Below, piece after piece: positions 7,601 to 33,488 of a stretch of DNA of 64,000 nt (positions within the stretch are counted from its first letter, which is position 1; each line of letters starts with the position of its first letter). The notes below the pieces were generated by a model. It saw only the letters and a list, made by a program, of their open reading frames with translations. It did no database searches and was not told the DNA's origin. Made by a program: the position numbers and the translations under genes. This stretch comes from Perkinsus olseni (lineage: Eukaryota; Perkinsozoa; Perkinsida; Perkinsidae), in NCBI GenBank assembly GCA_013115135.1, contig JABANP010000104.1, forward strand, positions 1-64,000, in the 5' to 3' direction.

Positions 7601-8395
7601 ATGAAATGAAGAGTTCTATTAGTATTACTTGTACTAGTTTTATCACTATTACTAGTATTTTATTTTGGTACTTCTCAGTTCCTCCGAGCGAATAAGCGAT
7701 ACCAAAACTTTCGTAACTTCATCACCTTTGAACGGTCTTGAGACTGAGATCGAGTTGCCTCCCAGAAAGTAAATCCTCTCCTGTATTCTTGGAAGGAGCC
7801 GTCACTCCAATCACTTCCCCAGGCATACCCTAATAATACACCCACCAGGATTCGAACCAGGGACCTTCCGATTACTCACATTCATTTTCAAATTGGTGAG
7901 GATGTCGTATCCCAGCTCATCAAAAGCACTATGCTCATGATCGCACAGCCTATCACCCACAAACACGCCCACCATTACATCACTGGCCAATACCGTGTCC
8001 AAACAGCTGTGTATCGTCCTCAAAGGAGAGGCAATAATCCTCACACCTCCAACGTCAGCTACATTAACTGCGTCCTCCTTCCATACCATCTCATTCGCAA
8101 AGCACCCCCAAACCCTACGCATATCCACATCACCATGGAACGCTATTAGCGCTACATTCAGCGGACCCTTCGCCCCCTCCTTCCCCTGAGCAACCCTCCT
8201 TTTCGCTATTATCGATTGCCTTCGGTTGTCCCTCAGCTGCCGGGCCTGGTTCCGCCTGTCCTGTTTACTAATATCTTTACTCCCGACCTTAGTGGCCTTC
8301 ACGGGAGTCCTTCGGCCCTTGTCCAGGACCTTCTTACTGCTATGCGGCTTGTTGGTCTGCCGTAAACCGGAGCTCGACTTGTGTTGATGCACCAT
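4647..8395 (-). CDS. TSR1: Pre-rRNA processing GTPase-like protein TSR1
   Basis: TSR1 is the Bms1-related, GTPase-inactive factor that binds pre-40S ribosomes in the nucleolus and cytoplasm. I solved thirteen exons: 8395-7880, 7829-7726, 7512-7380, 7323-7126, 7052-6926, 6851-6760, 6506-6367, 6123-5953, 5907-5743, 5692-5605, 5553-5456, 5109-4975, 4926-4647. They total 2247 nt (748 residues), close to the roughly 800 of animal TSR1. Every junction is GT-AG and keeps frame. Family hallmarks in order: the basic N-terminus with [47 protein letters not shown] with [23 protein letters not shown], and the C-terminal [20 protein letters not shown] with [13 protein letters not shown] and YKRAFPKW. I chose the start at MVHQHKSS because the earlier in-frame initiator is only a GTG. 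Introns are 45-74 nt except four of 213-346 nt, and they hold repeat families T, R and S. The only soft boundary is the donor near 6760. Confidence 0.95.
4927..4974 (-). repeat. TSR1 intron 12 with family R half-motif
   Basis: A 48-nt GT-AG intron containing GTATCTTGCAAGGTTG in the gene sense, one arm of the R inverted repeat seen elsewhere. Confidence 0.6.
5276..5350. repeat. Inverted pair of family S motifs in TSR1 intron 11
   Basis: AATTTCGTGGCGCG at 5276 faces CGCGCCACGAGAT at 5338. The two form a 75-bp unit with S-motif ends inside a 346-nt intron, the longest in TSR1. It resembles a tiny element with S as its terminal inverted repeat. Confidence 0.65.
5706..5724 (-). repeat. Family S motif in TSR1 intron 9
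   Basis: AATTTCGTGGCGAGTGACG in the gene sense, filling much of a 50-nt intron (5742-5693). Confidence 0.75.
5918..5936 (-). repeat. Family S motif in TSR1 intron 8
   Basis: AATTTCGTGGCGCGTGACG in the gene sense. It makes up the core of a 45-nt intron (5952-5908). Confidence 0.8.
6331..6355 (+). repeat. Family T motif, antisense, in TSR1 intron 7
   Basis: AGAGGTCCCCGGATCGATCC on the plus strand lies in a 243-nt intron (6366-6124) of the minus-strand gene, so the tRNA-like piece points against transcription. The ATCGAT core is palindromic, which makes the orientation call moderate. Confidence 0.55.
6878..6899 (-). repeat. Family T motif in TSR1 intron 5
   Basis: GGGCGTGGGTTCGATCC in the gene sense within a 74-nt intron (6925-6852). 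The T-loop core TTCGAT is intact; the downstream half of the stem is weak. Confidence 0.6.
7098..7117 (-). repeat. Family S motif in TSR1 intron 4
   Basis: GAATTTCGTGGCGCGTGACG in the gene sense, beginning 7 nt after the donor GTAATGG of a 73-nt intron (7125-7053). Confidence 0.8.
7341..7363 (-). repeat. Family T motif in TSR1 intron 3
   Basis: GAGGTCCCGAGTTCGAACCC in the gene sense, 16 nt after the donor of a 56-nt intron (7379-7324). It carries the tRNA-like variable-loop bases AGGTC, the T-loop TTCGAAC and most of the T-stem. Confidence 0.75.
7845..7869 (-). repeat. Family T motif in TSR1 intron 1
   Basis: GGAAGGTCCCTGGTTCGAAT in the gene sense begins 10 nt after the donor GTGAGTAATC. 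The motif occupies half of a 50-nt intron (7879-7830). Confidence 0.8.
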
Positions 8396-8595
8396 CGAGG
8401 ACAACGAGCCCAACTGCACCCCACGGGCGAAAACATCACCACGAATGAGTAAACGGCAAAAGCACAGCGAACGAAGAATCCGAATCCGCCCTTCCCTATG
8501 AGGGAGTTCTCCGACCCCCCACTCAGTTCACCGAAGTTACGAGTAGAAACGTAGTAAAGGTTAATGGACAACTATTGTTAACGTATTGAAGGGCT

Positions 8596-12241: not shown

Positions 12242-13336
12242 ATGCGGAGTATCGCTTTCCTGCTTGTGGGCGTGGCTGGGCAAGATCCACCGTTTGCGAA
12301 CTCCCTGACACCACCGGAGAACATTCCCGAGTGGGACGACTACTGCAAGTACAAGAACGGTCCGGAGAGCTACTGCAAGTACGAGCTGGAGCCAATGCTT
12401 TGCCAAGGAGGTGATCAAGCCTGCGGTGATGGTCCTGTCCCTTCTGTCGGGGTCGAAGCCACTACTCTCACTCTCGAGTCCGTGCAGACTACGGTGTCAC
12501 CCACATCGATCAGTCCATTGTCTACCACAACCGCTGCTGCTACCACAACCGCTGCTGCTACCACCACTGTGACTACTGTCCCTGGCGCGAATGACATCCG
12601 ATATGCTTGCGATGCGTATTGTGAAACTGTCAACGGCGCCAACTCCTACTGCAAGTGGTGGTTCAAGGAGCCGGTGTGTAAGGGTGGTAATCAGCCGTGC
12701 GGGACTCTCGATCTCTGTACTAGCGACTCCCCCTTTTCGCCCACTACCCGCCCTAGTGATGAGACCGTTACGACACCGACGGTTGACGGCCTTCATCATC
12801 CTGAGTGTGATTACATGTGCAAGAGCATGAACAACATTCTATCGTACTGCAAGTGGTGGATGGACACTCCAGTTTGTCATGGCGGTGATCAACCATGTGG
12901 TGATGTAGGCGAGTGCAGGTCACAGGATTGGCCGGAGCCCAAGACGCCTACGCCGGCCCCTGGAGCGCACCCTGGCCCTTCTAGGGAGTGTGATGCCTAC
13001 TGTTCCGGTCTCAATGGTGATGGTTCGTATTGTAAGTGGTGGAAAGCCGTTGCTGTGTGTAAAGGCGGCGATCAGCCTTGCGGAGTCGGTGAGTGTGCTA
13101 CAACTACTGAGTATATATCGATTGAAACGCCATCAACGGTCTCCCCGGTCGATGGTGATCGCCATAGCGGCCCAAACGTCAGGTGTGATATGTATTGTGC
13201 TGACCAAAACCCCGCGTTGTCGGGTAATTTGCCTACTTACTGCAAGTGGTGGCTGACAGTGCCCGTGTGTAAGCATGGGAATCAACCGTGCAATCCAAGT
13301 ATATGTGATTATGCTCCGTTGGGCACCTACCGTTAA
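12242..13336 (+). CDS. Secreted protein with five Cys/Trp-rich YCKWW repeats
   Basis: An intronless 364-residue protein. Residues 1-13 form a short hydrophobic leader ending GVAG, probably a signal peptide. Five copies of one module follow, at about 32-62, 122-160, 188-225, 249-286 and 314-355. Consensus: C-D-x-Y-C, 7-13 residues, Y-C-K-W-W, five residues, V-C-x-G-G-D/N-Q-P-C-G, often with a final G-E-C. The first copy is the most diverged (YCKYE instead of YCKWW). The linkers are rich in Thr, Ser, Pro and Ala (for example residues 93-115) and look like mucin-type O-glycosylation stretches. Six to seven cysteines per module suggest disulphide-bonded domains joined by extended linkers, as in surface or wall proteins. 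I do not recognise the module as a named domain. Confidence 0.85.
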   Translation: MRSIAFLLVGVAGQDPPFANSLTPPENIPEWDDYCKYKNGPESYCKYELEPMLCQGGDQACGDGPVPSVGVEATTLTLESVQTTVSPTSISPLSTTTAAATTTAAATTTVTTVPGANDIRYACDAYCETVNGANSYCKWWFKEPVCKGGNQPCGTLDLCTSDSPFSPTTRPSDETVTTPTVDGLHHPECDYMCKSMNNILSYCKWWMDTPVCHGGDQPCGDVGECRSQDWPEPKTPTPAPGAHPGPSRECDAYCSGLNGDGSYCKWWKAVAVCKGGDQPCGVGECATTTEYISIETPSTVSPVDGDRHSGPNVRCDMYCADQNPALSGNLPTYCKWWLTVPVCKHGNQPCNPSICDYAPLGTYR

Positions 13337-13549
13337 GTTTGAAGTCTATCTACGTAGTCGACCCAATATCCATCGTAATGGCCGTAAAGTGCATGACAAT
13401 GGTCGTTTCATACGTCTCCGACATCTGTTAGTTCAGTGGTAGTGAGTGTGGTGCATGAGAATTGCACGAAGATCGGAATTGGGTAGGGAACGCGCAAAAA
13501 GGAATTTCCGACAATCTTTATCGCAGTGGCACTCCAAGCTAGCGAGAGT

Positions 13550-14666
13550 ATGCTGAGGTGGTCATGTCTCCTTACTTTCAATGCTGCCGTGGCTAATGCG
13601 ATGGGTGTGATAACCTTACCGTTGATGGATGGCGAATCACTTCTGTACGCTCGTCTCAACATCAGTGCGCAGATCGTGGATCTTGCGATCGACACTGGCA
13701 CCATCAGCTTCCATGGTGTTGGTCAAAACTTCTATGAAAAACGATGCCGAAGAACGTACTTCAAAGAGTGTTACAGACTTGGTCCGCAGGAACTCAGAGC
13801 GATGAAGAACGGGACGCTAGAAGATAAGGGTTATTCTAACTCGTTGATGAAACGTATCTACGCAGTCAGAGGTGATGTTTCCTTCACATCAGCCCCGCAG
13901 ACAGCTGTGAATATGAGGTTTGGGGTTGTTACTGATGCGTGGTACATCACACCGGGAGGTCTGCTTAAAGAGTCGAGGGGAGGATGTACACTCTTTGCTG
14001 GGCTTGGGCTTCCCTCGTCAAGGCTCAGACACTTTCCTGGAGCAACTTCTGGCGGCAAAGGTTATTAATAAGACTGGGTTTACCTTGACTGTTGAAAACG
14101 ATGATGGTGGTGAGCTGGTCATTGGCTCCTTGAAACCGCGGAGCCCCACAGAGACCGGCGCGCTGGTTTATCTGCCTCTAACAGGTATACCGTATAAATC
14201 ACAGAAGTGGTCCGTCTCAGTTGCTCGTGTGTTCATTCACGTGGTCGGTCGGTCTCCATACGACATCCGAGTGAGCTCGTCGGTTCTGATTGACTCCGGG
14301 TCTCCAGGTCTGATGGGGCCGCAGTCTTTCGTGGATAAACTCTTCTCAGTATTCACAAGAAACTGGAGAAAAGCAAACCGGGGGACTCCTGATCACAAGA
14401 GGAATGAATACGGCCTGTTGATTGACTGTGATGATGCCGAGTATGTGCCTGATCTGTCGGTCCGCTTTTATACAGGACGCGGTCGTACGATGCTCCTCAC
14501 CATCCCCAAGCGGCACCTTGTCGCTCCTGAAGAAGCTCCCTCGGGCCACACATGCCTTATCCCAGCGAGAGTCTGGCCAAGCTGGGTGTTTGGCATGCCG
14601 ATTTTTAGAGGCCGATCCATCCGCTTTGACGTCGATAACAAAGCCATTGGGTTCATCCTTAAATGA
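13550..14666 (+). pseudogene. Pepsin-like aspartic protease with a frameshift
   Basis: Pepsin-family (A1) proteases cut proteins in acidic compartments or outside the cell using two Asp residues. The ATG at 13550 gives a signal peptide (residues 1-18) and the first active-site motif, AIDTGT, at Asp48. The reading frame then switches near 13976-13990, at a run of G bases, to the frame that carries LLGLGFPRQGSDTF and the second motif, VLIDSGSPGLMGP. That frame ends after DVDNKAIGFILK at 14666. The combined length, about 370 residues, is typical of the family. No GT-AG intron explains the switch, so this is either a one-base sequence error or a real inactivating indel. The upstream frame runs to a stop at 14068. 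Both catalytic aspartates survive, which suggests a recent break or an assembly error. Confidence 0.8.
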
Positions 14667-14907
14667 GTTCTCGCTCGTGTTGTAACATGATGATGGCCGA
14701 TGTTGATGTTGCTGAAGTGCCACTGTTGCTTAGAGTTGAGTTAATTCTGTAAGCAATCGAATTCTGGTGTCTCCACTAAAGACCAGCAACACCATAATCT
14801 CCCCAAAATACTGGTAACTCAATTGAGCCAGCTACGTGAAAGATCTCATCTCAACATAAAAAAGTAGTTCAGTAGAGGTCTACTGTGAAGCCGCACTCAC
14901 TGCGAAG

Positions 14908-16356
14908 TCATAGCCTGGACACGTCGGCAACAAAACAATCATCAATCTTCCGAAAATGCTCCTCCAGAATTGCGTGTAACTCCTCCTCGCACTGCAGCAT
15001 GAGAGCATGCCCTGATTCGGGAAGCTCAACAACAGTCGTGAGCTCAGGTACAGCGCGACGAGCTATCCGTCTCGACGACTCAGGTGGTACCAACTTGTCC
15101 TTTCCACCGTAAATTATCAACATCGGCATCTGAGCATGTATCACTGACTAGGACGAAGGACCGAACAAGATACGCGAGCGGCGCGCTGAGCTGGCGGAGT
15201 CGAAACCACATTGATCAGATAGCTCAGAGTTCCCTGCCGCAAAAGAACGGAAACCCGTGGCGACCTCAACTGACCATACACGGAGGGTCTTGTGAAATTT
15301 CTCAATTCCATCTTCGCCAACTGAATGGTTGAGTAAGCCAATGATTTGCTTCAGAGCATCAGCCGGCGATGTCAATGGGACTTTCTTGTGCTCGCTCGAG
15401 ACATCGGGTGGCAGTTCCTCCCGGTCAACGCGAGCGAAGGCCTCGACGATCTCCTCCCTGGATTAAATGTCGTGACTGAATGGGTGAGTATTTGAGGTCA
15501 GTTCTACTTATTTTCGTGGCGCCATTTCTTCGGGAAGAGCAATCGCAACATCGGATGGTCGGCGTTGATTTCTCCCGTGGCTGGGTCCTTCAGAGGCCCC
15601 CCACCACGGGTAGCGATGATCGAGATAAGATCCGCCATTGCGGCCAGCGAAGGCATAGTTGACAAGCTCGATCGGCAGTGGGTCGTTATCAATACCAGAG
15701 ACTTGATACGCAGAGTAGCATGTCCCTGACAGAGGTTACTTAGTAACACTTGGGAGGGCCTCCGTAGCAAGCCCAGGGTAAGCCTTACCTCAGCCACCAT
15801 CAGTGCCAGCCTCTGGGAGATCATCCCACCCATACTGACACCAACGAGATGGACCTCAGACATTCCGCACTCCTGAATGCACGCCAATGCGTCTCGAGCC
15901 ATCGACGATATCGTATGGGGACGCCTGAGAGGACAAGACACAGCTGTACAACGTGGTCCACCGACAGTGGACAGTAACAGACAGTATACTATCACGGGTA
16001 AAATCTTGAAAGTTCGAACTGATGAGAAGACAGGTAAACCCTAATCGCTGGTGGAATGGGATAAAGGGCAAGAGGCGTTTACATAGAAAACCGCTCCGGG
16101 GTACTGAAGCCCACACCGCGATTATCGATGAGGAGGACCTTGTACCCGATTGAGGACAAAAAGGCCGTCTGAGGAGGAGGGATACCGGGAATCGAACCCA
16201 CGACCTTTCGCTTACTTGCGGGGCCCAACACACATGAGACATAGCAAGGCCCATTATCATTACTATATTGCCCTTGCCTGGCATCATGCTCGCATCAGCT
16301 GGCTCGACTACTCTGTAGTAAATGAGATGACCGTCTGGCCTGGCGACCCATGGCAT
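14908..16356 (-). CDS. Alpha/beta hydrolase fold protein
   Basis: A serine hydrolase of the alpha/beta fold; the substrate cannot be read from sequence. Seven exons: 16356-16216, 16168-16083, 15924-15789, 15725-15508, 15457-15280, 15233-15174, 15129-14908. They total 1041 nt (346 residues), in frame throughout with GT-AG introns of 47, 158, 63, 50, 46 and 44 nt. The order is as expected: the oxyanion region IVMIMGLAMSH, then YKVLLIDNRGVGFS, the nucleophile elbow HLVGVSMGGM with Ser106, MPMLIIYGGKDKLVPP with Asp284, and LPESGHALM with His314. All three catalytic residues are present, so it should be active. No signal peptide is visible. Intron 1 holds a T motif; intron 6 begins with the R motif at its donor. 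Confidence 0.93.
15130..15173 (-). repeat. Hydrolase intron 6 starting with family R
   Basis: The 44-nt intron begins exactly at GTATCTTGTTCGGTCC and has GTGATAC eleven bases before its acceptor side. The R element itself supplies the splice donor. Confidence 0.65.
16185..16208 (-). repeat. Family T motif in hydrolase intron 1
   Basis: AAAGGTCGTGGGTTCGATTC, then CCGG, 8 nt after the donor of a 47-nt intron (16215-16169). It is very close to the variable loop and T-arm of a tRNA. Confidence 0.8.
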
Positions 16357-17694
16357 TGCTAATGACGATGTACTAAAGGAGGCAGGCGGGTTTGGAGCAA
16401 GAGATCGACCACTATTCCAGCGGTCGTCAAGCTGTACCAATCATCCGATTTAACAATCAGTCACTTTCCGTTGATCGCCCCACCTCGTGCGGACTACTCG
16501 CTGCGTGCCGAGACAAGAACCCGTCGAGACCGCAGCTTGGGGTCCTCAAGTATCCTCCCTCGGTAGCAGCCGCGAACTTCCATAGAACGCAATGATCCCT
16601 TAAAGTCTGATGGCACTCAAGGCGTTCTCTTCCAACTCCGATCGATAGTCTTCTGATCAGGTCGTCGCTGATGCATCTCCAGCTAGGGATGAGAAACCAT
16701 CGGCTGTGAGGATGACCCCCATTCTTCCCCGGAAGATTGAGGATTCTTTCATCTTGGAATTTCCGCCGAGGAAAGGAGCATTCCTCTCCGACGACCCACC
16801 CTGGCTTATTCCTCACCCAGAGCGAATGGTCGTACACTGGTTCGTGCGCGAGAACTCTGGCAACCAATCGCGCGCTGGACAGCACTGGAATATAAAGCAA
16901 CTACGCCACACCCATGGGTTTCACTGGAAACTGCATAATCTTCCATCCTTTCTGAAACGAGGAGTGTGGCTTCTGAGCTATCTTAGAAACGCCTTGTGTA
17001 TCAAGTAGCCGAGTTTAGGCTGAGAAATTACTGATAGTGTTCGAGTGCCTCAGCCCTCGCGGAGAACAAGCAATGATACTCATAGTATTTATAGACTATC
17101 GTTATCATGATAGCTATGATGAGAGATAGCTAACTCAACCGCTAGAAGCAACATCAAGCCTCGTTTTTCACGTAAAAATATAAGTACTGTCTTCAACATA
17201 GTGGCAGAATATTGGCATCTGAAATGTACGGGTTCGTGGCGAAATTCGCCGCAGAAGTTGAGAGAAAACGAGAGTAGGCCTGTGCGAGCCGATGTACAGC
17301 TATGGCTGATTACTGCGAAAAGCTCCATTTCAGAGAGCACGAGAACTAATTGAAGAAAAGAAGGAATGGTAGCCAACCGAAGGGGAAAATCAACTTTGAC
17401 TGGCTGACTCGATTCGAGTCCTGGAGATTATGATTGTGGTCGTACACCAGGGCGGGGCTTGTGTGAAGGTCGTTGGGCTCAGGACGCGTAAGCGGATCCT
17501 CCCAGTAGGGAAGAAAACTCATCTGGTTGGAGTGCACCCCTGATCTTCGTTAACAGCGAAGCGACGACATCTTCTCGAACCCCGATTCCGTTCAACGTCG
17601 GATCTCGGTGGTGGCGTCCTCGTCGAGCCGCATCAAGGTGGAGCAGCTAGACTCGAACGCGATAGTCAAGGTTCACAACAACTAACAACATCCG
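16357..17694. other. No gene recognised with confidence
   Basis: There are ORFs on both strands at 16457-16900 (minus) and 16706-17008 (plus) covering the same bases. Neither shows a known domain or convincing splice structure. A palindromic GACTCGATTCGAGTC lies near 17411. Confidence 0.35.
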
Positions 17695-18200
17695 TCAACC
17701 AAAAGTCGTGTAATGAACATAAATTGGTCCGGGAGAGAGGTTCCCTTTGTCCGTCTTAACTGCATACCTCCCCGACGACACTCGAGAGTCATTCAAGAAC
17801 CTGCCAAGGTGCAGGTGCACAACCGCCATGAGGCCATCGATGCCATATCCTGGTCGAGTGGGGAGAGAAAGATTCCCCCTACCTCCTCGTCCTGGGGAAG
17901 CTGAACTTAGCGCTAGAAGGCACCTTGCTGGAATCGAACCCGCACGGATTGGTACTGCTACCTGCAAGCAGGAGGTCATCACGGTGGCTGCATTGACGAC
18001 TAACAACGGAGCGAGCACTCACTGAGAGCATCGCGCCACTGCAACTTCGCCTGTGGGCCGAATGCATCGGCGCCGCTCGGAGGGAAGCTGGCGAAGTACT
18101 CTGATGGAGCTGGTGCTGCTCGATTTCGGTACCGCAGACTGTCGGTCTGTAAACGCACAACCATGTAGGTCCAGTTGGATTATGTAAGATCGCTGTGACA
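17695..18200 (-). CDS. Hypothetical multi-exon gene, partial
   Basis: The last part reads through RPGYGIDGLMAVVHLHLGRF to the stop at 17695. Upstream, a GT-AG segment holding a family T motif (17926-17948) splits it from an exon near 18010-18120 with a serine- and proline-rich sequence. I cannot fix the start or the exact exon chain and recognise no family. Confidence 0.3.
17926..17948 (-). repeat. Family T motif
   Basis: CCGTGCGGGTTCGATTCCAG on the minus strand, following a GTAGCAGT donor-like sequence and followed by a polypyrimidine stretch and CCCCAG. It probably lies in an intron. Confidence 0.55.
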
Positions 18201-23024: not shown

Positions 23025-23099
23025 CTTGCCTGAAGAGTTACGAATGGTGTGGTATCACTCCTTAGCCGCTAAGACAACCTCACCGATTTCGTATCTTCA

Positions 23100-23310: not shown

Positions 23311-23566
23311 AATTCAAAAGACAATATTAAAATCACTAAAGCACTTTCGCGTCCTTAGCGCGCTCTACCACTATTTTCAGGAAAACGGTGATAATTTCAC
23401 AAAAAAATAACACAATTTCTTCAACAATACCATCCACTAATCCCATAGCAAAAAATAGCACTTTTCAGGTCTCCCGGGAAATTTCCGAATACACGCGGCG
23501 CCGTATGAAGCTGCCGATTTTTTTCGCAGAAACAGAAAATTTCGCAGATAAATTTGGCGAAGGCTG

Positions 23567-25040
23567 CTAAACCAGTCCAATGGGAAATAATTGACGTATC
23601 CCAAGACCTACACAGCTGAGATTGGGCATCTCCACCGCTAAGTCCACAGGCGTCTTGCCGTCTATGTTCCGCCGTCTCTGACCCCGACCGTCAGGCAACC
23701 GTTTCAACAACGCACGGAGGGTCTCCGGAAGCGCACAACTACAGCAGAGGTGCAGAGGAGTGTTCAGCGATGAATCCACGACCTGACGAGGGGTGAGAGA
23801 GGTGGTATCGGAAGCGGCAGGCCTTACCAGAAGATCCTCGTCATCTAGGAAGCCAGTGGCGAGTAAATAGAGTAAAACGCCCGCCTTCTGGGAATCGAAC
23901 CCGGGACTTCCGCATAGACAGTGAATTGGCAGAGAGAACTTCTCACCTCTGCAAACGACAATCGGATATTCAACGAACCATCTCGAAACAAATCCATCCT
24001 CTTCTGCGCAAAAGCCTACCGTAGGTGAGCGCATCGGTGCTGAGTCCCAATAGACTACCAACGGTGAGCTATAAGCTCACAAACACAGTTCCACTGAGTA
24101 GTACGACAAGTCAACGCGGAGGAAATTTCCCTCAGGAAATCTCGGAATTTTTCCTTGTCCCTCGAGCTTTCTGTTATTGGGGTATTCTGCGTGCTTCCTT
24201 CGTCCACGATCGGGAGTCCAATCGAGGCGGTACTACCGGCGTTGGACTATCAACTCACCAGCAAAACGCAACTCATGGGTCAACGGCGGAGAGATCTCGG
24301 GATTTTGTACACGTGGACCCATCGAGCAACTTATCATTCTAGTATTCCGTTTGCCTTCCAAGCCCACAATGGCTCAGAATTACACTTCCCGCTAGTATCA
24401 TCGTGCCAAGTTGCGAAGAATGAGACCGTCCAATACCAAAATTCCACCAATTCATACATTATATTATTTTGCAACCTAGTTCACCTGCGTATCACTTTCA
24501 AATATACTTGTCGCTCTGCCGTTCCCCTTTACAATACAGAACTAACCATTTCGAATTCGAGACACTTCGCGAATGTTCATACCAACTCATACTTCTCTAC
24601 TTCTTCGCTACTACTATCACCAGCAGAAGCTAATCGAGTTGGCCTCGACCGTCCGACGAAGCCCCCTAGCCCTTACCCCAGGAGATCCTGTTCGTCATAG
24701 ACAAAGTCCTTGGCGTTAGCTCCGACGCTCAACCATCGCTCATTATTTTTCTTAGCCCACGGAGTAAATACTTTATACCACTTCGCAGGTTTGGTGAAAG
24801 CTCGAGGTCGAACCTGAAAGATACGCCGAATATCTTTCAACCTCGTGCTTGTCACTGTTCAACCTCAAGATTCCCCATCCTACCCTACCTCTACGCATGC
24901 TTGCACTCCCTCCAAGTCACCTCTCTCAAGTGCATGCTTCAACCGTAGCTGCAAGTCACAGAGGACAGCATCCTCGCTGACCGACGTATGATGCCAAGGT
25001 AAATGGGGCGTCAGGAATCTCAAAGTCATTACTACTGGAG
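23567..25040 (-). CDS. Ankyrin-repeat-like gene, model incomplete
   Basis: The C-terminal exon reads NTPLHLCCSCALPETLRALL with NIDGKTPVDLAVE, a good ankyrin repeat, and stops near 23567. An intron with a family T motif (23887-23911) precedes it. Upstream on the same strand are coding exons at about 24050-23940, 24810-24680 (KWYKVFTPWAKKNNERWLSV) and 25030-24920 (LQLRLKHALERGDLEGVQAC, ankyrin-like helix). These may be one gene, but I could not close the frame between them. The long plus-strand ORF at 24155-24700 is probably a shadow. Confidence 0.45.
23887..23911 (-). repeat. Family T motif in ankyrin gene intron
   Basis: GCGGAAGTCCCGGGTTCGAT, then TCCCAG, on the minus strand, within an intron beginning GTGAGAAG. 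Confidence 0.75.
24822..24850 (-). repeat. Family R inverted repeat
   Basis: GGTTGAAAGATATTCGGCGT with ATCTTTCAG forms an AAGAT/ATCTT hairpin next to an acceptor on the minus strand. Confidence 0.45.
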
Positions 25041-25195
25041 TGACTACAGAGAGTTACCCGGGTATGTCAGTGATATAGCGGATATTTGGTATGAGATATA
25101 CGCCCGAATGGCAACTGGTAGTCAGTACCGTTTTCAAGAGGAGATGATAATGGCATACCCCAACCTCGTATTATCATGATTACTCGGGAGAGCTC

Positions 25196-25226
25196 TGCAT
25201 CATCATCATCATCATCATCATCATCG
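25196..25226. repeat. (ATC)n trinucleotide microsatellite
   Basis: About ten uninterrupted ATC/GAT units. The minus-strand ORF across it reads as poly-aspartate and is probably not a gene. Confidence 0.9.
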
Positions 25227-25793
25227 CCTGCCTCTGGATGGGAAGAATTAACCACAGTATTATTGGTAATAGTAACTCATGGCTCATCGCGACAATTTCC
25301 GCTATAGAAAAAGCAGCACCGCTCCGCTTGGTGTAGAGAACACAACAGACTGGAAGAAGGACACCTCGTTATCATGACCCAGATGGTGATGCAAGAATGG
25401 CAGGAACTTGGTAAGGGGCTGTGAGCTTCTCAACAAGATAGAGTTGTGGATCCAATCCAGCGGTCTCGATAGCTCTGAGAAGACGATAGGGGATGCCTAG
25501 CGCAGTAGTAGGCGAAACCTTCTTTCCGAATCGACAAGGGCGGCAACGGAGCTTCTGCCAGTGTCGAAATCACGACGTATAAAAAGGGAACTCGGAACTC
25601 AAGCGGTTTTTGCCCGATCAAACCACTCATTATCACAACCCGCGTCTTCCCTGCGACCCTACAGCACTTCCTCCGACCTAACCCGCAGCGACTCACCCAA
25701 GAACGTCTCCGCATCGATCGTCCCCACTCCAGTGTCTGCTATCACCAACTGCCATTAATATCCTCCGCTCTGACGGTGTAGTCAAAATAGATG

Positions 25794-26330
25794 TCTAAGA
25801 AAAATACCGTCACCGCGGATCGAACCAGGGTCGTACCTCAGACGGCCCCAACCTCTCGAGCAATCTATCCGTCAAATTCCCAACAGTCTCATCTTCGTCA
25901 CACTCAACACTATATTTTGTCCATCCACTCTTCACTTGTATCGCAATCGGAAGCGTCACCGTCCTGAGTCGACCCAAGCCAATCACCCGATGCCTTCCAT
26001 CAAGGGCAACCCACCGTCCGCTATTCGACAGGTTGACCTCAACAGCCTCCACAGGAGAAGTCCCAGCCGAGTCAGAACCGTCTTCATTTTTCCCACGGCC
26101 TCCTTCGGACGCATCAGCTGCCCCCCGACCCATCAGTCTCTCCAGCAGCTTCTTCCTATCATCCACAAACACAAAATACAGAAAACGACATGTGCCGGGA
26201 TCGAACCCGAGACCTTCCGGTTCTCACCTCTCCCTGACTCTAGCTCGGTAATCCTTCTCAACTTTCTCCCAGTATCTTATTCCACTCCTTAGATGATGCC
26301 TCTGCCACTTCTGCACATCCTCCAAGCACT
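25794..26330 (-). CDS. Gene with coiled-coil helix and ubiquitin-like segment, partial
   Basis: Two exons are firm: one ending at 26228 and 26155-25837, joined in frame across a 72-nt intron with a family T motif. The first carries EDVQKWQRHHLRSGIRYWEK and DYRARVRERKKLLERLMG. The second is acidic, then has VNLSNSGRWVALDGRHRVIG and VTLPIAIQVKSGWTKYSVEC with TVGNLTDRLLERLGPSE, reminiscent of a ubiquitin fold. A 42-nt intron with another T motif (25836-25795) leads to a further exon from 25794. Start and end are not resolved and the name is unknown. Confidence 0.6.
25815..25833 (-). repeat. Family T motif in a 42-nt intron
   Basis: CGACCCTGGTTCGATCCGC, 3 nt after the donor GTA of intron 25836-25795. 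Confidence 0.7.
26194..26220 (-). repeat. Family T motif in a 72-nt intron
   Basis: CCGGAAGGTCTCGGGTTCGA followed by TCCCGG, 7 nt after the donor GTGAGAA. This is one of the best tRNA-like copies, with five T-stem pairs. Confidence 0.85.
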
Positions 26331-26699
26331 TGTTGCCATCCTTGCCTGATCGACGCAAACTCAAGACGGCCTTCCACCCAAAGAACGGCACTGCTATAAC
26401 AAAGCGAGAGGGTCGCTGAATGAGTCGAGGACTGGGTATGGCGGAAATTAGGGTGAAAATTGTGGTACTCCTCTTCGACCAAGCCGACCGAGCTAAGCCA
26501 TTTATAAAACTACATTTATCGGCATAACACCAGCTTCAGCCCATCGCCCATCACTGTCTTAGGCCATGTGCGAGTTACTATTAAAAGCACACGATAAATC
26601 ATTCAAACTCATACCAGAATCAACAGAATTTTTCCTTATTTCAATTTCAGAGCTGCTCCGCTGCTTCCACCGCCGTTTACAAGATGCGAGTGACAGAAA

Positions 26700-27000
26700 A
26701 GAGCAGATCAACAAACCCTCTCACTTCTCCCATCAGGGCGCCGCCAAAAAGATTTCGCCTCGGCATCACCAGCGATGAAGTCCGGCATCGAGTAATCGTA
26801 GGTTCTATCAGGCGCAATGGCCAACTCGGCAAACCTCAGGCCTTTCAATTCGTCTTTAGAACCTACACCGAGAGGTCCCGGGTTCAATCCGCGCACTCGG
26901 CATTTTTACTGATAGATTCCTTGGCCATCTCCTTATCAAAGTAGTCCAACGCAAACGGCTGCGTGCTCCAAGGCGGCCGTGCTGTCTTGTCTACAACCCA
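26700..27000 (-). CDS. Conserved-looking exon pair, gene not identified
   Basis: Exon A encodes VDKTARPPWSTQPFALDYFD then KEMAKESI. Exon B encodes SKDELKGLRFAELAIAPDRT then YDYSMPDFIAGDAEAKSF. They join in frame across a 47-nt GT-AG intron (about 26908-26862) that carries a T motif in antisense. I recognise no domain. The donor after exon B lies near 26720. Confidence 0.5.
26871..26893 (+). repeat. Family T motif, antisense, in a 47-nt intron
   Basis: AGAGGTCCCGGGTTCAATCC on plus, within an intron of a minus-strand gene. The T-stem is good, and the T-loop has TTCAA instead of TTCGA. Confidence 0.7.
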
Positions 27001-28250
27001 AACGTCTCCTTCCGAGCCACCACGACCAGCAATCCTACTCGACCGTTTCTGGCGATCGCCACTTGGCCGACTATCATCACGTCCCGCGATGGGCTCATCC
27101 AGTCTCCCGATGTTAGTATCAAAATAACCACCATCATTGCCTTTGGCGGAGTAGGCGAATTCTGAGGGGAAAATCTCTGATCATAATTTTTTTCTGTGGA
27201 CCGCAAACCCTGTAACCACTTCGGATCAACAGCACCATAAAATAATCACTCATACAGATGGGAAAAACAGAGAAAATTATTATGTTTTCCGGTCAAACCA
27301 ATACCAACTTTTCCGTTGAAAAAGAATTTTCGCAACAGAAAAAATTTTTTCTCGAAAAAAACATTTTCTCCTTAACCAGGATTTTCAAAGGAATAAAATT
27401 AATGTTTTTCAGCCGACCATCCAGGCCAGCCCTCTTACCCTTTATGAACGGTTTTGATCGTCGACGTTCGTGTGGTGGAGGGACTCCCTTGGCACCGTAG
27501 ATCCCCATCCGCGATGGATTCTTCATGAAGTTGCCTGATGGCTCCGAGTTCACCTATCCAAAGATACTCCCTTCCAAGTGATGGCCTACAACCTACCAGC
27601 GCATCCGTGCCGATTCTGAAACCAGGGGCGTCCGCGTACGTCCACGGTGGGCGATTCTTCTGAAAATCCGACCAATTCTGCCAAGCGCACGGTGCAACCT
27701 CGGATACCCAGCAAACAAATCTCGAGGCAAGGAGACAAATACCCCTCCTCACCACCATCCAGTAGCCTCACGGAAATGACGACGACAGCCTACCGGTTTT
27801 CGCGCCCGAGCAATCGCTCTCTTCCTCAAAACCTCCGTCTTCAACTCAGCATAAGCCTTCCTTTTCGACTCCGCCAGGGCCGCGCGTCCCCGTTGTAAGG
27901 CTACATAATAATGACGAATATCTTACACGGGAATCTACTCAAAAGCGACCACCTTCGTGATCTTCATGGATCAACCTTCGATACTCTTCTAACGATGGAG
28001 ATGGCATAGCGGACACAGAAAATCAACTGGGAGCGATCGAACTTGAAAGGGATACTAAGTAGCGCCGCTGCGGTCCACAGTAGTGAAACGAAGACGTATC
28101 CAAAGGTTGCCCATGGGCTCATACAGATGAAAAGATACCAACACGACACCAGCTAACTAAAAAGATACGACGACTTCCACCGGCAGGATTGAACCAAAAG
28201 CGCCACAGTGAATTTCCATTAATAATGAATCGTTAAATATTATTATAAAA
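27001..28250. other. No complete gene solved
   Basis: It contains AT-rich intron-like DNA (27240-27420) and a minus-strand frame at 27590-27770 without a known domain. A minus-strand hydrophobic ORF at 27964-28149 could be a membrane exon of the gene ending at 28251. R-type sequences occur near 27958-27985 and 28090-28135. Confidence 0.35.
28181..28200 (-). repeat. Family T-like motif next to R-like motif
   Basis: CTTTTGGTTCAATCCTGCCG on the minus strand is followed 9 nt later by CGTATCTTTTTAG. Both families lie in the last part of what looks like one intron. Confidence 0.5.
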
Positions 28251-28980
28251 TCATACAAGGGACCAACCGCCCACCAACGCCCCTGCCAGATGAGAAGCAT
28301 CATCATCATCACCATCAGCTGGGGTATCCCTCCCCTCTGGCTTGGCCTTCCCCTCAGCCACCTCCTCATCATCATCGGAGCTGTCCACCGAGGCAGCCAG
28401 AGCCGCAACCGACGTCTTAAGGTAGCCCAACGACGACGAGGCGAAGCCCCAGGCAGACGACGAAGAGGGCGCTTCTTCTACCGTACCGCTCTCTTCCCTA
28501 CTCTCGTCACTAGAATCGTCTTCAACAGCCTGGGCAATCTCAGTCGCTGTTGCCTTAACACTCTCATATCCCCTCCGGAGCAGCCCTCCCACTGTCCCTA
28601 CACTTTCCTTCTTCTCTTCAGCTTCGCTAGTATCATCACTAACATCATCCTCCACCGCCTGCGCCAGCTCATCAACACTCGCCTTCAGATTCTGGAGGCC
28701 CTTATAAAACACCCCCGACAATCCAGAACTTGTTTCGTGATCAACAGCAGCTGTCGAATCCGCTGCTTCCGGCATAGTACCAGGCCCTTCCGACCGCGCC
28801 GAATCCTCTTTCGACTGTACATCTTCACTCTCGTCCCCTTCCTGAAACCACTAAAATGCGTTCCTCAATGAGCCCTACCACCACCCACCATGACAGCCTC
28901 CTTGATGGTCTCCCAAAGGCCCAGATCCGACTGGCTCTCCTCCGCAGAATCACCCCCCTTCCCCGATACACCTGTCGAGC
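28251..28980 (-). CDS. Acidic protein with repeated amphipathic helices
   Basis: The ORF of 28251-28775 continues upstream in frame to an acceptor near 28840. A short intron then gives an exon around 28880-28970 containing SDLGLWETIKEAVM. At least three copies of a roughly 20-residue helix are visible: GVFYKGLQNLKASVDELAQA, GGLLRRGYESVKATATEIAQ and ASSSLGYLKTSVAALAASV. They are separated by D/E/S-rich linkers. The pattern resembles amphipathic membrane-binding helices. The start is unresolved and there may be further 3' exons. Confidence 0.55.
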
Positions 28981-29154
28981 TCCAATCAACGATACTACCG
29001 TCTCATCCGTGAAACGCGAAGTACCGCTTTTCGCGAAGCGAATTTCACTCAGTAGAAATCCCGATCCACTCGTGTTTAAAATGTTTTCTTTCAAATAACG
29101 GATAGAGCTACCAAAAAGCTACTACCACGACCACCCACCATAGTGTGGTGATAT

Positions 29155-29220
29155 AAGGAGCGTGGACTTTTCTCAGACTAATCCGAAAAACGAAGGTTTT
29201 TCCGTTCACAAATAGCGTTT
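29155..29220. repeat. Dispersed hairpin repeat, copy 2
   Basis: AAGGAGCGTGGACTTTTCTC, AATCCGAAAAACGAAGG and CCGTTCACAAA align with 937-1000 in the same order. Confidence 0.65.
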
Positions 29221-29267
29221 GGATTCGAAAGTTGGATGGCATATACATTTTGAAGCGTGGAATTCAT

Positions 29268-29373
29268 TGGAGTTTCACCCGTAATACGTAAAGGGACGTG
29301 GTTCCACGTCACTAGTGATATTAGTGATTATTATATTTTCGCTAGTGTTTTTCATATCGCGGATGAAACTCCA
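29268..29373. mobile_element. MITE-like element, related to the foldback at 31-166
   Basis: A 106-bp unit with 13-bp terminal inverted repeats (TGGAGTTTCACCC; the right end gives TGGAGTTTCATCC). Internally TTCGCTAGTGTTTTTCAT resembles TTCGCTAGCGTTTTTCAC of the 31-166 element, so the two belong to one family at different stages of decay. Confidence 0.7.
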
Positions 29374-29449
29374 TTTTAACCGTTTCAAGCGACCTTAATA
29401 ATAACAGATTACGCTAAGAATCCATCAGAGTTACACTCGGAAAGAAATT

Positions 29450-29880
29450 ACCCATAATTCATACCACACCTTCCCTTATTACTATGAGAACTCAGAGGAG
29501 CGGCTGTCGCCTCGGTAGTTTCCTCAGCGGCGACCGAGCCTTTTTGAACCGCGTCGAGCTCTGGCGCCGACACACCGACAACCCGGAGCTGTTCAGTCCC
29601 TCTCATGAATCTCTCATCACAACGGATCTGAAGCTGCTACCATCCACCAAGCATCACGACCAGCTAAACTTACCCGATCCACTGCTATACCGTGGTCAGC
29701 GAGGCACTCCAAGGCGGTGATGATGGCGATGGACGGCGACGGCCCTGTGGAGAGCTTCTCCAACAAGGCCGCTACTATCGTCCTCGAGCTTCCCGTTTCA
29801 TCTTCCTTATTTATATGACACGACGTTATCAATTGTTCAGTAAGCATCCGTGCTAAAAGCAGCAAGGCAATAGTACCCTA
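29450..29880 (-). CDS. Two-exon helical protein, partial
   Basis: Exon A reads LLLARMLTEQLITSCHINKE, then AALLEKLSTGPSPSIAIITA and LECLADHGIAVDR. A 46-nt intron (donor GTAAGTTTAGC) joins it in frame to an exon with IRCDERFMRGTEQLRVVGV, running to a stop near 29455. The helical pattern is HEAT/ARM-like, but I cannot name the gene. The start lies upstream of 29880. Confidence 0.5.
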
Positions 29881-29899
29881 CCGCCCCCTCATTACAGCG

Positions 29900-30542
29900 A
29901 GGGTATTTCTGGCCTCAGGGATTTCATACTCACTAAAAATTACGATACGACTACGACTCTCTAATTTGGACTGAAATACGATCTGTAATCAGTAATTATA
30001 TACTGTACTGCAGATCGCACTACCCCTTCGACGGACAGTGAGCATGTGTGTTGAAGAGAACAACCCAGGAGTGGTGACCTACCGTCCGCTGACTACAGCC
30101 AGGTGATTACTCTGGCGTCATGGATTATAGCCAGTTAATAATAACGATACGACTACAACTCTGACTACGCATCGAGAATTGGTAATTTTAGGTCACAATG
30201 AAGACCGCACTACGCCGCCCGCCCCGTAGCAGCTCTCGCGTATCTTGCAAGCTTCAACCATGGATACGCCATAGAATCAAATTCCCACCGCGGAAACATG
30301 ACCACGGTATCTCACCCTTTGACGGATCTTCGCTCCGTGCGATCTCCTCTATTCGACCTTGGATACCCTCCCCACCTTCTACCTCTGCTGTCGTCCCAGA
30401 AGACATTACAATCATCACTATCACACTTTCCCCTCGCAACCCCGACACCGGCATCTGCCCAACACCAGTCTGCTATCTCAGAGAAGGATAGAAACATCAG
30501 AATCGTATCTTAACGCTCGTGTGAAACGGCGAATCTTTTCCG
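29900..30542. other. No gene recognised
   Basis: Short ORFs only. A glycine- and glutamate-rich minus-strand frame at 30254-30454 could be an exon but has no supporting splice sites that I trust. Confidence 0.35.
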
Positions 30543-33488
30543 CTATTGCTGTTGCTGTTCTTGCTCCGGGTTCTCCTCCTCGCCATTATCATCGTCACCT
30601 CCCGGAGCTTCTACGGTGAATCGATCCTCCTCTTGCGTGTTATAACTACCACAATTCCCACACTTCATACCCATGATATGAAAGGGCACCTTCGGCGTTA
30701 TTGATCTAAAAGTGCATCATGCCGGGGTCGAACCAGGGACCTTTCCCATGAGACTTACTCGCAGTCATTGCAGTGTAGCCTGACGAATGTTGTTCGATAT
30801 TCCTTCGGCATCCTCACTCGAGCAACCTCCTCGTCAATCACTCGCCATATACCCGACATATCTTCCTGCGTCGACTTGTTGCACAGAGGACACCTGCATG
30901 CGTGCTTATCATACCAAAATTCGCCCAAATCTTCTGCCTTACCGCATCGCCTGAACGATAGTCGGAGCATTCCTCTGCAACTCTCTCAGGCACGTCGAGT
31001 GAATACCATGGCCGCACCGGAGTACCACCGCCTAAGGTAACGTCAAACTGCGTACCACACCCCACCCGCTTCGAAGGATGCACACCCAACAAAGGAGCGT
31101 GTACAGGAGTCCTGTGAGAGGACTCCTAGTATCGGATCACCGACGGTCACATCCGTACTGATCCTCGAACTTCATCCTAATGCGAGGATTCGAAGAAAAC
31201 ACAAGTCAAGAGAGTCGATACACGAGGGTCGGGGACATGTGGATCGTCATCATCATCATCGGGCGAAACCAATGCCTAGGTCGAGCAAACTTCGCCAGAT
31301 GTGAGATGATCATCGAGCAAGCCTCTAGGAAGGAGATTCATGCCATCATTTGCATAGGGATCTCCCAGGCAAGAATCCATGACCATGTATAATAGTTGAC
31401 ACTCAATTGGCTCAGAGCAGCCCAAGCTGTTCCTTACACCTTGTCCGGTACCGCCTCGTCCAAATCCAACCCCACGCCCACACTATTTCACACGAGCAAT
31501 CTCATGTTCTCTAAGTTCGCGGCTGAGCTGTGGTGGTTGCACTTGAGATAGGAGATCAAGCCGGTGATGATCCGTCAGAAACCTTGCTCGGCTTTGTCAC
31601 CATCCATCAGAAACCTTGCTTTACCGCAGTCCCGCAGGCTGTTGCGTAGCATTGTACCCGCAATACCATGATAAAGTTCGCATGGGCCGCCTTCCCAGGA
31701 GTGTTATTGGACAACAGATAGCCCTCCGCGCCTAGGTGGCTTTTCTGAGGTAGAAGGCTCTGTCACTGACGACTTCCCTGAGGGAGCCAACATGAACATG
31801 AGTTTGCCGTGGAACTTCTAAAACGGATCTCGTCCTCTCGTCGGAGATCTGTAGCCAGATGACATCACGGGTAAAACGGTACTGACATCTCGTGAGTCTC
31901 CCGAACGCCATAAACTCCGCAATGCAGACCTCACGATCACGCTTCTGTTCTCGTTGCTCACTCGAGCGAGCCGAAGAGCGCGGACCCAGGTTACCTGGGC
32001 CAGGTACCCCTCCTAAAAGCTCCTGGATGTAGCTAGCCAACAAAATGGGCTGCAAAGAACTTTGTCATATCACGAACGGACTCAAGCATGGCTTTCTCCC
32101 TTTGGAGCTGTACGGCAGGCCGGGTACACTGTACCCCGGATTCTCGCCAACAGCGAGGCTTGCTGGGCAGTATCAAAAAAGACTATCATTCACGCACGCG
32201 CCCTATCGAACACAATTGGCCATCGCAGCCCCAACGGTGGAGTTCCCAAACCACATGAGTCGAATCTTCGTGAGCAAAACGATCAAGTTCAGACCAGGCG
32301 ACCTTGCACTTACTGGTATCGTCGACTCAAAAAGACTTGCTTGGCACACCGGGCAGACGTTCCTCATGGTCTCAGCGGAAAGGCAATGGTGATTCTCGAA
32401 GACTTCAGGAGGGTAACAGGCAGCACATCTAACGATAACAAAAACAACGTCACGAAATAGCGCTTCGGCAAGGAGAAAAATGACATCCGCAAACTCCCTG
32501 GCAGCTGAGGAGCTCAGAAAGAAAGCCTTCGGTAAGCTCAAAAAGGTATTGCTCCTATTTTAAGATCAATCAGCATACTATACGTCTCGTATCATCGCAA
32601 TTGTACAGCCCACAATCTTCCATTCATAGGAATTTTTGGAACAGAGAAATCCGTGATGAAGGAGGAAGACGAAAGAGCTCATTAAAACCTACCCATAACA
32701 GTGTTTGTAATTCTCTCGACCACCCACTCGGCAAATACCACAACCATCGCAATGGAAGGCACCTACGAAAAACGGCAAAAAATTACCGCTCATCATCATC
32801 AGCGCCAACACAACCTCACCTTTCTCAACTCCTTTATCGTCCCAAAATTTACACTTATCGCAGTAATATTCAGCAAACCGAATACCACACTTTTCGCAAA
32901 TCGCCGCCGGCTTCTGCCGATGAAAGCAACTCTCGCACTCAATCTCTTCGATCTTCGTCCGATCCAATTCGTGAGCCTTCTTATAATCCCGTTCATTCGC
33001 CATTCTGAAATCGCCAAAAAAATCTTCACGACTAAACCGGTGGTCAACCGTGCCCACTTGGCTTCATTGTGGCAGTGCCGACACCAAAACCATTCTCCAC
33101 AGCAGGGCGCCAGAATTTTGCACCGTCGCTTATAGTGCTCACAACCCTCATGCTCTCCCGCGGGTTGATTAACAGCTAAATTGTCACTCTTCGATGGCTC
33201 ATCTGATCACAAATCGATCAGCAGGGCGCGCGCTCTTCGTCAATCACCTTCTCCATCGTCAGACTCTGCATCGCTAAATCCGCTGTCAGCATCATCGTCT
33301 TCGTCAACTTCGTACCACTGAGAAGAAAATTTTACTTTTTCTATAAAAATTTCACATGAGCTTGAAACGGTTACATCATCTTCATTATCAACGGGTTCCT
33401 CCACACCCTCTCGCCTCGGCACCTCCTCTTGCCTATCTTGCTCATCTTGCACTTCCTCAACGTTCTCTGTATGATTCTCCCCAGTCAT
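30543..33488 (-). CDS. RCHY1: RCHY1/PIRH2-like E3 ubiquitin ligase (CHY, CTCHY and RING zinc fingers)
   Basis: This family links a CHY zinc finger, a CTCHY finger, a C3H2C3 RING and a zinc ribbon, and ubiquitinates nuclear or cytosolic targets. Eight exons: 33488-33248, 33202-33049, 33004-32820, 32762-32693, 32428-32314, 31031-30943, 30893-30759, 30705-30543. They total 1152 nt (383 residues) with every junction in frame. An acidic N-terminus of about 85 residues precedes the CHY finger ([54 protein letters not shown]). CTCHY follows ([31 protein letters not shown]), then RING ([35 protein letters not shown]). The tail has [22 protein letters not shown] and [16 protein letters not shown] and ends glutamine-rich. 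Intron 5 is 1282 nt, against 44-57 nt for most others. Confidence 0.94.
30722..30742 (-). repeat. Family T motif in RCHY1 intron 7
   Basis: AAAGGTCCCTGGTTCGACCC on minus, 15 nt after the donor GTAAGTCTC of a 53-nt intron (30758-30706). The acceptor is TTTTAG. Confidence 0.8.
31032..32313 (-). other. 1282-nt intron of RCHY1, probable insertion
   Basis: It lies between the first and second cysteine halves of the RING. Its content is unlike the small introns: a 107-residue minus-strand ORF at 31732-32055, another coding-like stretch near 32060-32110 ([13 protein letters not shown]), and GC-rich DNA. I see no terminal repeats. It may be a degraded mobile element or a nested gene. Confidence 0.6.

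Follow-up and report, generated by a model that had tools for sequence, protein, structure and literature searches.

Scraps of tRNA-like mobile DNA may have become short introns in Perkinsus olseni

The origin of introns is a long-standing question. Known introners mostly resemble DNA transposons, or are introns that copy themselves through reverse splicing. In a 64,000-nucleotide stretch of DNA from Perkinsus olseni, a species of a genus of shellfish parasites (the whole stretch analyzed is referred to here as the window), pieces resembling the T-arm of a tRNA had been noticed inside short introns of unrelated genes. The locus therefore raises the question of whether these pieces, here called family T, are a true repeated feature, what they derive from, and how they came to lie in introns.

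We searched the window with a profile trained only with copies from outside it; a profile was used instead of a covariance model because the T-stem showed no covariation. Fifteen sites scored at least 16 bits, whereas 40 windows simulated with a Markov-1 model averaged 0.05 such sites each (maximum, 1). One of the 15 is a true tRNA-Asn and another, 26190+, is a palindromic echo of the copy at 26215, leaving 13 copies, so that the predicted recurrence of tRNA T-arm-like pieces held far above chance. In the genome, CCGGGTTCGAATCCCGG with at most two mismatches gave 822 matches versus 7 for a reversed control, and GGTTCGANYCC occurred 4071 times versus 284 when reversed, i.e., approximately 3,800 B-box sites above control. 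An AGGTC...CA pattern was found at 69 places versus 0 in the control; since these places had been selected on AGGTC, G65 and CA, those letters were not counted as evidence in that set. These data confirm that family T is a true repeated feature of the P. olseni sequence, beyond chance.

Spliced alignment of proteins placed many of the window copies (Table 1). Alignment of the P. olseni protein P0022 (719/739 residues identical) gave a TSR1 map of 12 introns and bore out all four copies expected there, in introns 1, 3, 5 and 7; the final two profile columns of the intron 7 copy extend past the donor. The sites at 25.8, 26.2 and 26.9 kb had been assigned to separate genes. Alignment of P. olseni P0142 (374/408 identical) confirmed that the copies are intronic but showed one gene rather than three, with 11 introns, three of which carry a copy. 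Across TSR1 and this gene, 7 of 23 mapped introns hold a copy (five sense, two antisense) and exons hold none. Two antisense copies, 26873+ and 6333+, were located inside introns by these alignments, and the intron around the former is spliced past, as in each of the deposited P. olseni proteins P0142, P0143 and P0144 the residues ...ISSKDELKG... continue over the site. The copy assigned to the hydrolase gene was likewise upheld, as it fits a 47-nt GT..AG intron, about 16215-16169, where the protein match breaks; on C340, which carries a paralogue, two matches cover the same 254 bases. The 23.9-kb copy is genuine but has ambiguous splice sites, and the site attributed to RCHY1 intron 7 is present but weak. 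However, a copy predicted near 9184 in NOL10 was unconfirmed, because the five introns mapped there with a distant homologue (P0001, 251/496 identical) contain no site of at least 11 bits. Elsewhere, the near-identical pairs that were noticed, such as L073/L075, have flanks that are alike too and look like paralogues, and no allelic copy of window positions 13000-31000 was reported.

Table 1. Positions of family T copies, and of the one complete tRNA, in the window
Feature	Position	Strand	Orientation	Intron	Score (bits)	Boundaries or remark
T copy, TSR1 intron 1	7831..7866	-	sense	7879-7830, 50 nt	39.2	P0022
T copy, TSR1 intron 3	7327..7362	-	sense	7379-7324, 56 nt	33.1	P0022
T copy, TSR1 intron 5	6862..6897	-	sense	6916-6852, 65 nt	28.1	P0022
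T copy, TSR1 intron 7 donor end	6333..6368	+	antisense	6366-6124, 243 nt	28.5	P0022
T copy	25799..25834	-	sense	25836-25795, 42 nt	33.1	P0142
T copy	26180..26215	-	sense	26227-26156, 72 nt	32.8	P0142
T copy	26873..26908	+	antisense	26909-26863, 47 nt	31.9	P0142; most of the intron (- strand gene)
T copy, alpha/beta-hydrolase-like gene (named by eye)	16171..16206	-	sense		26.4	
Weak T-like copy, region earlier called RCHY1	17913..17948	-			17.6	
T copy	23874..23909	-			27.5	intron direction ambiguous
T copy	30707..30742	-	sense	about 30758-30706, 53 nt	32.4	GT..AG
T copy	41118..41153	+			27.3	
Weak T-like copy	63462..63497	+			19.5	
True tRNA-Asn(GTT)	54007..54079	-				sole complete tRNA found in window; yardstick, not a copy; profile site 54036-

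Placement in introns was also analyzed genome-wide. An unselected sample (L119-L178) was taken from the list of GGTTCGANYCC places, beginning at C1 and ending at C6:12314, with three that were already in use left out; its 67 matches were reduced to 59 by removal of true tRNAs and palindromic echoes. Twenty-seven of these 59 sites were intronic at a score of at least 10 (14 sense and 13 antisense, in GT..AG introns of 43-123 nt), with the reading frame restored in 20 of the 27, and 32 had no confident intron placement. In a pooled set of 153 elements, which includes 6 rows from tRNA-bearing loci, 88 were assigned to introns (56 sense, 32 antisense) and 65 were not. When the intron was picked by splice score alone, the winning direction restored the frame best in 52/92 sense and 36/53 antisense copies, against a null of 1/3 (binomial p, 4e-6 and 3e-7), and the losing direction did so in 42/122. 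This test covered 145 nonredundant copies, being the pooled 153 minus the 6 rows from tRNA-bearing loci and two without a candidate; an earlier version in which some palindromic copies were double-counted (e.g., L005 and L019) gave 64/95 and 29/76. The presence of the unit in introns of unrelated genes and in both directions supports the view, already part of the original prediction, that the unit cannot be explained as a splicing signal alone.

The fit between unit and intron is tight. Introns of at most 60 nt account for 58 of the 88 assigned. The distance from donor to AGGTC in the 56 sense introns had a median of 9.5 nt (interquartile range, 6-20), close to the 3-16 nt expected, and the unit lay a median of 7 nt from the donor in antisense introns. 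As anticipated, the 30-nt unit makes up a large share of these introns, about half of their length (median, 0.55 in sense and 0.53 in antisense). These measurements bear on an explanation that we regard as unlikely, in which relics of a tRNA-derived element were inserted into existing introns and later deletions restored a length of approximately 50 nt, with no intron being born. The lack of a clear TSD agrees with this explanation: in the 88 introns, in-register repeats were at chance (run of at least 5 in 4 observed versus 3.9 expected). A set of 66 introns had given a hint (run of at least 6 in 3 versus 0.8, p = 0.035; run of at least 5, p = 0.087), and hints in the single introns L102, L100 and L055 were unsupported by the larger set. 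Some copies also lie in long introns, such as that of 243 nt in TSR1. However, chance shrinkage is unlikely to have produced repeatedly both the short length and the position near the donor in either direction.

The unit consists, in order, of AGGTC (variable loop), the B box (T-loop), seven bases ending in Y72 and A73, and then a T-run, which begins 8 nt past the T-stem and is Pol III terminator-like. Judged by these letters, the unit corresponds to the 3' part of a tRNA gene, terminator included, but has no anticodon arm or A box. It had been described as having no acceptor, but the 3' acceptor strand, the discriminator A and the terminator-like T-run are all present. The absence of upstream tRNA parts was borne out, since an A box was found in 1 of 152 upstream regions versus 1.9 in shuffles and no anticodon-stem pairing in register was found upstream of 152 copies. 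ARAGORN reported one complete tRNA in the window and none in L001-L008; the few cloverleaves over copies obtained with introns allowed were implausible and were read as false calls. In the 59 unselected sites, which had not been picked for these traits, the T-run started at position 9 or 10 in 21, C/T72 was present in approximately 89%, and A73 was present in approximately 66%. Antisense introns retained Y72 in 29/32 and A73 in 25/32, indicating that these letters are not splicing constraints only. T-run density was 3.70 of 5 in sense introns versus 2.66 in antisense introns, and part of the T-run conservation is thus splicing selection. End-to-end likeness between copies is absent, the common parts being AGGTC, the B box, Y72-A73 and the T-run only.

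The B box is the best kept of these parts. Among the matches listed in the CCGGGTTCGAATCCCGG search, 5 of 86 single mismatches, read by eye, fell in the nine core B-box positions. When the loop was masked from the search, 26 non-tRNA copies, also read by eye, had C56 in 26, A58 in 26, R57 in 25 and Y60 in 25; this count omits three non-tRNA matches at the tRNA-bearing loci L014, L019 and L031, whose loops also begin TTCGA. A core retained while T-stem letters drift, and a loop still conserved when masked, would be expected if the unit were a working DNA signal, a B box to which TFIIIC or a similar protein would bind and which selection maintains within introns, with any mobile past beside the point. 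Extra-TFIIIC sites consist of a B box only, and family T is like them in having a B box without an A box. However, such a signal leaves unexplained the AGGTC, Y72, A73 and T-run at tRNA spacing as well as the tight intron setting, and we consider it distinctly unlikely.

The description of the unit as a T-arm as such did not stand. T-stem pairing at 49:65, 50:64 and 51:63 was not above shuffles in the 59 unselected sites (p = 0.97, 0.17 and 0.44) and was at or below the shuffled value in the 153 pooled copies (p = 0.66, 0.73 and 0.95). A set of 103 copies had included 10 from tRNA-bearing loci; the pairing test was repeated both with those 10 removed, leaving 93, and with the 153 pooled copies. 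The absence of covariation indicates that the B-box sequence, and not a folded T-arm, was retained. This result has already weakened the suggestion that 3' fragments were captured separately from many tRNA genes, for example in double-strand-break repair. Separate capture would suit acceptor letters 66-71, which vary from copy to copy and are Ser-like in some (CCCGC-GCAGG), and it would suit the lack of a clear TSD. However, different tRNAs would bring paired T-stems, and this pairing is missing despite an intact B box, which implies little decay; separate capture is therefore very unlikely.

Folding of six window introns gave mixed results, with a predicted hairpin at the T-arm place in two; in five introns the fold did not surpass that of shuffled sequences (z, -0.76 to 1.22), and in the 47-nt antisense intron it did (z, -2.18); an RNA hairpin was rejected by the lack of T-stem covariation. 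A splicing signal or hairpin inside the intron whose likeness to a T-arm is only convergent, although compatible with these two hairpins, with proximity to the donor and with a T-run that forms the pyrimidine tract of sense copies, is scarcely credible given the near parity of antisense and sense introns in the unselected sample, the absence of T-stem covariation and the five introns that fold no better than shuffles.

We favor, with modest confidence, the explanation that family T is an old, short (approximately 35-45 bp) two-way introner-like family with its origin in the 3' end of a tRNA gene. Copies probably landed in exons and turned into introns, since two thirds of the introns assigned measure at most 60 nt and the unit takes up about half of their length. 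In the sense direction, the T-run lies within the pyrimidine tract that precedes the 3' splice site, and the donor is a short way upstream of AGGTC. In the antisense direction, the complement of the T-run could supply a purine-rich donor (such as GTAAAAATG), with the acceptor beyond the complement of AGGTC. More speculatively, the ancestor may have been a tRNA-derived element of Pol III type whose spread required the B box but no folded tRNA. The occurrence of copies in both directions argues against spread via reverse splicing. Against the introner-like explanation, neither a source element nor an empty site, intronless allele or sister-species gene was seen, a clear TSD is lacking, and many sites have no confident intron placement. 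In addition, B-box letters are far better conserved than the rest, which plain dead-element decay does not predict.

tRNA-derived SINEs contain an A box, a B box and a body, and TSDs usually flank them. Family T shares with them a B box, a T-run like a Pol III terminator, a copy number in the thousands and occurrence in both directions, but it has no A box, no visible body and no clear TSD. In the accessible part of Gozashti et al. 2022 (PMC9860276), introner families were detected by intron-end similarity, some of them have neither TSD nor TIR, the search provided for insertions in the opposite orientation, and the main text there makes no mention of tRNA, SINE or Perkinsus. As with those introners, short introns of family T recur in unrelated genes, the host is an aquatic protist, and one genome holds several families. 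Unlike them, its many similar introns share only a 30-nt inner core, a tRNA 3' end, and neither a clear TSD, as in DNA-type families, nor end-to-end similarity was found. The same part of that source describes ascomycete introners as thought to spread by reverse splicing; family T resembles these in lacking a clear TSD, but reverse splicing is expected to give sense copies only, whereas 32/88 assigned family T introns are antisense. In the family T copies inspected by eye, no TIR was noticed. Amoebophrya introner elements, in the accessible part of Farhat et al. 2021 (PMC7789003), have inverted repeats of 8-20 nt between intron ends, direct repeats of 3-5 nt and mostly noncanonical splice sites. 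They too are invasive intronic repeats in a dinozoan parasite, but the mapped family T introns are GT..AG and have no clear direct repeat. In the literature searched, as far as its accessible parts go, we found neither a tRNA-derived introner nor a Perkinsus introner.

A wider reading is possible but doubtful, namely, that a Pol III-type element pared down to a tRNA 3' end with a B box and a terminator, and without an A box, made thousands of Perkinsus spliceosomal introns in both directions, its T-run serving as the pyrimidine tract in sense and as the donor complement in antisense, and that this element and two or more further families with short cores may together represent a large share of the introns in this parasite. 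Searches based on intron-end similarity could miss old families that have only an inner core in common. These observations suggest that, in Perkinsus, fragments of mobile tRNA-like DNA were turned into introns. If true, an element without its own pair of splice sites can turn into an intron in either direction, and a two-way family from the tRNA 3' end, an orientation-independent intron maker of tRNA lineage, would be a third source of introns.

Introns of Perkinsus olseni, a parasite of molluscs, were mapped by spliced alignment of two P. olseni proteins to the window, P0022 (TSR1) and P0142, a protein of the gene at 25.8-26.9 kb. These alignments gave 12 introns in TSR1 and 11 in the P0142 gene. 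Copies of family T, a repeated unit resembling the 3' end of a tRNA gene, were present in 7 of the 23 mapped introns and in none of the exons. TSR1 assembled from the window exons matches 'tsr1 [Perkinsus olseni]', with 719/739 residues identical overall and 92.6-100% tblastn identity in six matches not crossing an intron. The alignment bore out a copy in each of the four TSR1 introns where one had been predicted. The copies previously assigned to three genes at 25.8, 26.2, and 26.9 kb do lie in introns, but of one gene. Three deposited P. olseni proteins (gene models) read ...ISSKDELKG... across its antisense 47-nt intron (GTAAAAATG...GTGTAG), skipping the intron. In contrast, the copy predicted in NOL10 was not confirmed, because no site of at least 11 bits was present in any of the five introns placed in NOL10 by alignment of a distant homologue; the NOL10 piece had no Perkinsus match (best identity, 48%), possibly owing to the length limits of the search. 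A hydrolase paralogue or allele (G000:C340:15851-16104, on another contig) has two exon matches spanning 254 bases, equal to the window hydrolase span that includes a 47-nt T intron.

A 36-column profile, trained on copies all from outside the window, detected 15 sites in the 64-kb window at a threshold of at least 16 bits, compared with a mean of 0.05 and a maximum of 1 in 40 Markov-1 simulated windows. One site is tRNA-Asn (54007-54079), no other complete tRNA having been found in the window, and another is a palindromic echo of the copy at 26215; 11 of the remaining 13 lie within 6.3-30.8 kb. These counts and the protein-mapped introns uphold the original prediction of T-arm-like pieces in short introns. 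The predicted copy at 23909 exists, but its splice sites are ambiguous; the match at 17948 is present but weak. Across the genome, CCGGGTTCGAATCCCGG with up to 2 mismatches gave 822 matches versus 7 for the reversed control, GGTTCGANYCC gave 4071 versus 284 reversed, and AGGTCNCNGGTTCGANTCCNNGNNNNNNCA gave 69 versus 0 in the control. Copies with sequence on both sides were subjected to a frame test, in which the best GT..AG pair was picked by splice score only and intron removal was scored as joining the flanks in frame better than two shifted joins (null, 1/3). Among 145 non-redundant copies, the join was in frame in 52/92 where the better-scoring direction was sense and in 36/53 where it was antisense, versus 42/122 in the losing direction. 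Among the 59 B-box sites of an unselected sample, 27 scored at least 10 as introns of 43-123 nt (14 sense, 13 antisense; frame restored in 20), and 32 were unplaced. A pooled set of 153 elements, in which the intron score also uses frame, gave 56 sense introns, 32 antisense introns, and 65 unplaced elements, a direction ratio less trustworthy than 14:13 because this set leans on pattern-chosen copies. Median pooled intron length was 55 nt (sense) and 56.5 nt (antisense), 58/88 were at most 60 nt, and the 30-nt unit took up 0.55 and 0.53 of the intron, respectively. Since two thirds of the introns are this short and the unit fills about half, the simplest account is insertion of a short element into coding sequence, with splicing removing it from the outset. 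Entry of the unit into already existing introns is an unlikely alternative reading of these same placements.

In tRNA numbering, the unit reads AGGTC (44-48), GG (52-53), TTCRA, a free position 59, Y60, and CC (61-62); these are followed by a seven-base stretch whose last letter is C/T72, by A73, and by a T-run. In the unselected sample (n = 59), Y72 occurred in ~89% and A73 in 66%; counting from the stem, the first T-rich stretch started at position 9 or 10 in 21/59 and was absent from the 30 nt scanned in 18/59. With the T-loop masked in the scan, loops of the non-tRNA matches examined showed C56 and A58 in 26/26 each and R57 and Y60 in 25/26 each. Single-mismatch matches to CCGGGTTCGAATCCCGG had the mismatch within the nine B-box core positions in 5/86, where an even spread gives ~45. 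Pairing at 49:65, 50:64, and 51:63 was not above shuffles in the unselected 59 (p = 0.97, 0.17, and 0.44), in 93 pattern-found copies (0.82, 0.87, and 0.82), or in the pooled 153 (0.66, 0.73, and 0.95), and a T-stem conserved as RNA was rejected. Among six window introns, predicted folding beat the shuffles in the antisense 47-nt intron (z, -2.18) but not in the other five (z, -0.76 to 1.22); a hairpin was predicted at the T-arm place in 2/6. Pairing at shuffle level and mostly ordinary folding therefore indicate that the constrained feature looks like B-box sequence, not T-arm. Thus, of the predicted tRNA T-arm element, the tRNA-like T-loop/B-box letters held, but a kept stem with covarying pairs did not. 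That such letters mark a selected TFIIIC-like site, with putative binding, appears rather improbable. Upstream of 152 copies, no anticodon stem was found in register, and an A box occurred in 1/152 regions versus 1.9 in shuffles. Capture of many separate tRNA fragments is a quite doubtful source of the copies. Y72 (29/32) and A73 (25/32) are kept in antisense introns, and therefore splicing constraints are not the only ones acting; that the unit is a splicing signal is highly implausible.

For an element landing in coding sequence, both directions may offer splice sites. Sense introns have the donor just 5' of AGGTC (median, 9.5 nt), and the T-run would fall in the pyrimidine tract; in antisense introns the median distance between donor and A73 is 7 nt, and the complement of the T-run could supply donors such as GTAAAAATG or GTAGGAATG. 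T-run density was 3.70/5 in sense versus 2.66/5 in antisense introns. Reverse splicing should yield copies in sense only, at odds with the antisense copies; a MITE would be expected to carry inverted repeats or leave target site duplications, and at introns with T copies no clear duplication was found and no inverted repeat was noticed. Introners have been found in 175/3,325 genomes (Gozashti et al. 2022, PMC9860276), in a report whose main text mentions neither tRNA, SINE, nor Perkinsus. Inverted-repeat introners have been described in Amoebophrya (Farhat et al. 2021, PMC7789003). Among the freely available journal papers listed by a literature search, no tRNA-derived introner appeared. We infer that a Pol III-type tRNA-derived element, in which the B box is needed but the fold is not, best fits the letters.

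Mapped introns carrying T copies or other repeated cores
Feature	Intron	Length or coordinates	Direction or strand	Source
T copy	TSR1 intron 1	50 nt	sense	P0022 spliced alignment
T copy	TSR1 intron 3	56 nt	sense	P0022 spliced alignment
T copy	TSR1 intron 5	65 nt	sense	P0022 spliced alignment
T copy	TSR1 intron 7	243 nt	antisense	P0022 spliced alignment
T copy	P0142 gene	42 nt	sense	P0142 spliced alignment
T copy	P0142 gene	72 nt	sense	P0142 spliced alignment
T copy	P0142 gene	47 nt	antisense	P0142 spliced alignment
Second core AATTTCGTGGCGCGTGAC	TSR1 introns 4, 8, 9	7125-7053, 5952-5875, 5742-5693	-	
Second core AATTTCGTGGCGCGTGAC, antisense	TSR1 intron 11	5276	+	
Third core GTATCTTAGGTYGA	NOL10	10829-10770, 10177-10129	-	

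The dinozoan spliced-leader exon gave 185 genome matches with up to 2 mismatches versus 0 for the reversed control. Copies at three loci (L179-L181) lack a GT donor after the exon and run into a common sequence, resembling spliced transcripts copied back into genomic DNA. Spliced leaders of Perkinsozoa are covered in PMC9399869. Tandem tRNA gene arrays, including Arg-TCT and Ile-TAT, were seen at L022-L027 (contig C823) and L038 (contig C778), and dispersed repeats at window positions 17280-17543 and about 29150-29375 have relatives elsewhere in the genome at 67-95% identity. The second core, found in four TSR1 introns, also forms a 27-bp tandem array (locus L008, about 370-451). A 17-letter subset of this core with up to 1 mismatch gave 1056 genome matches versus 0 in the control, and the third core occurs with its complement, as the inverted repeat GTATCTTAGGTYGA...AAGATAC, in two NOL10 introns. 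Family T is one of several short intron core families in this genome.
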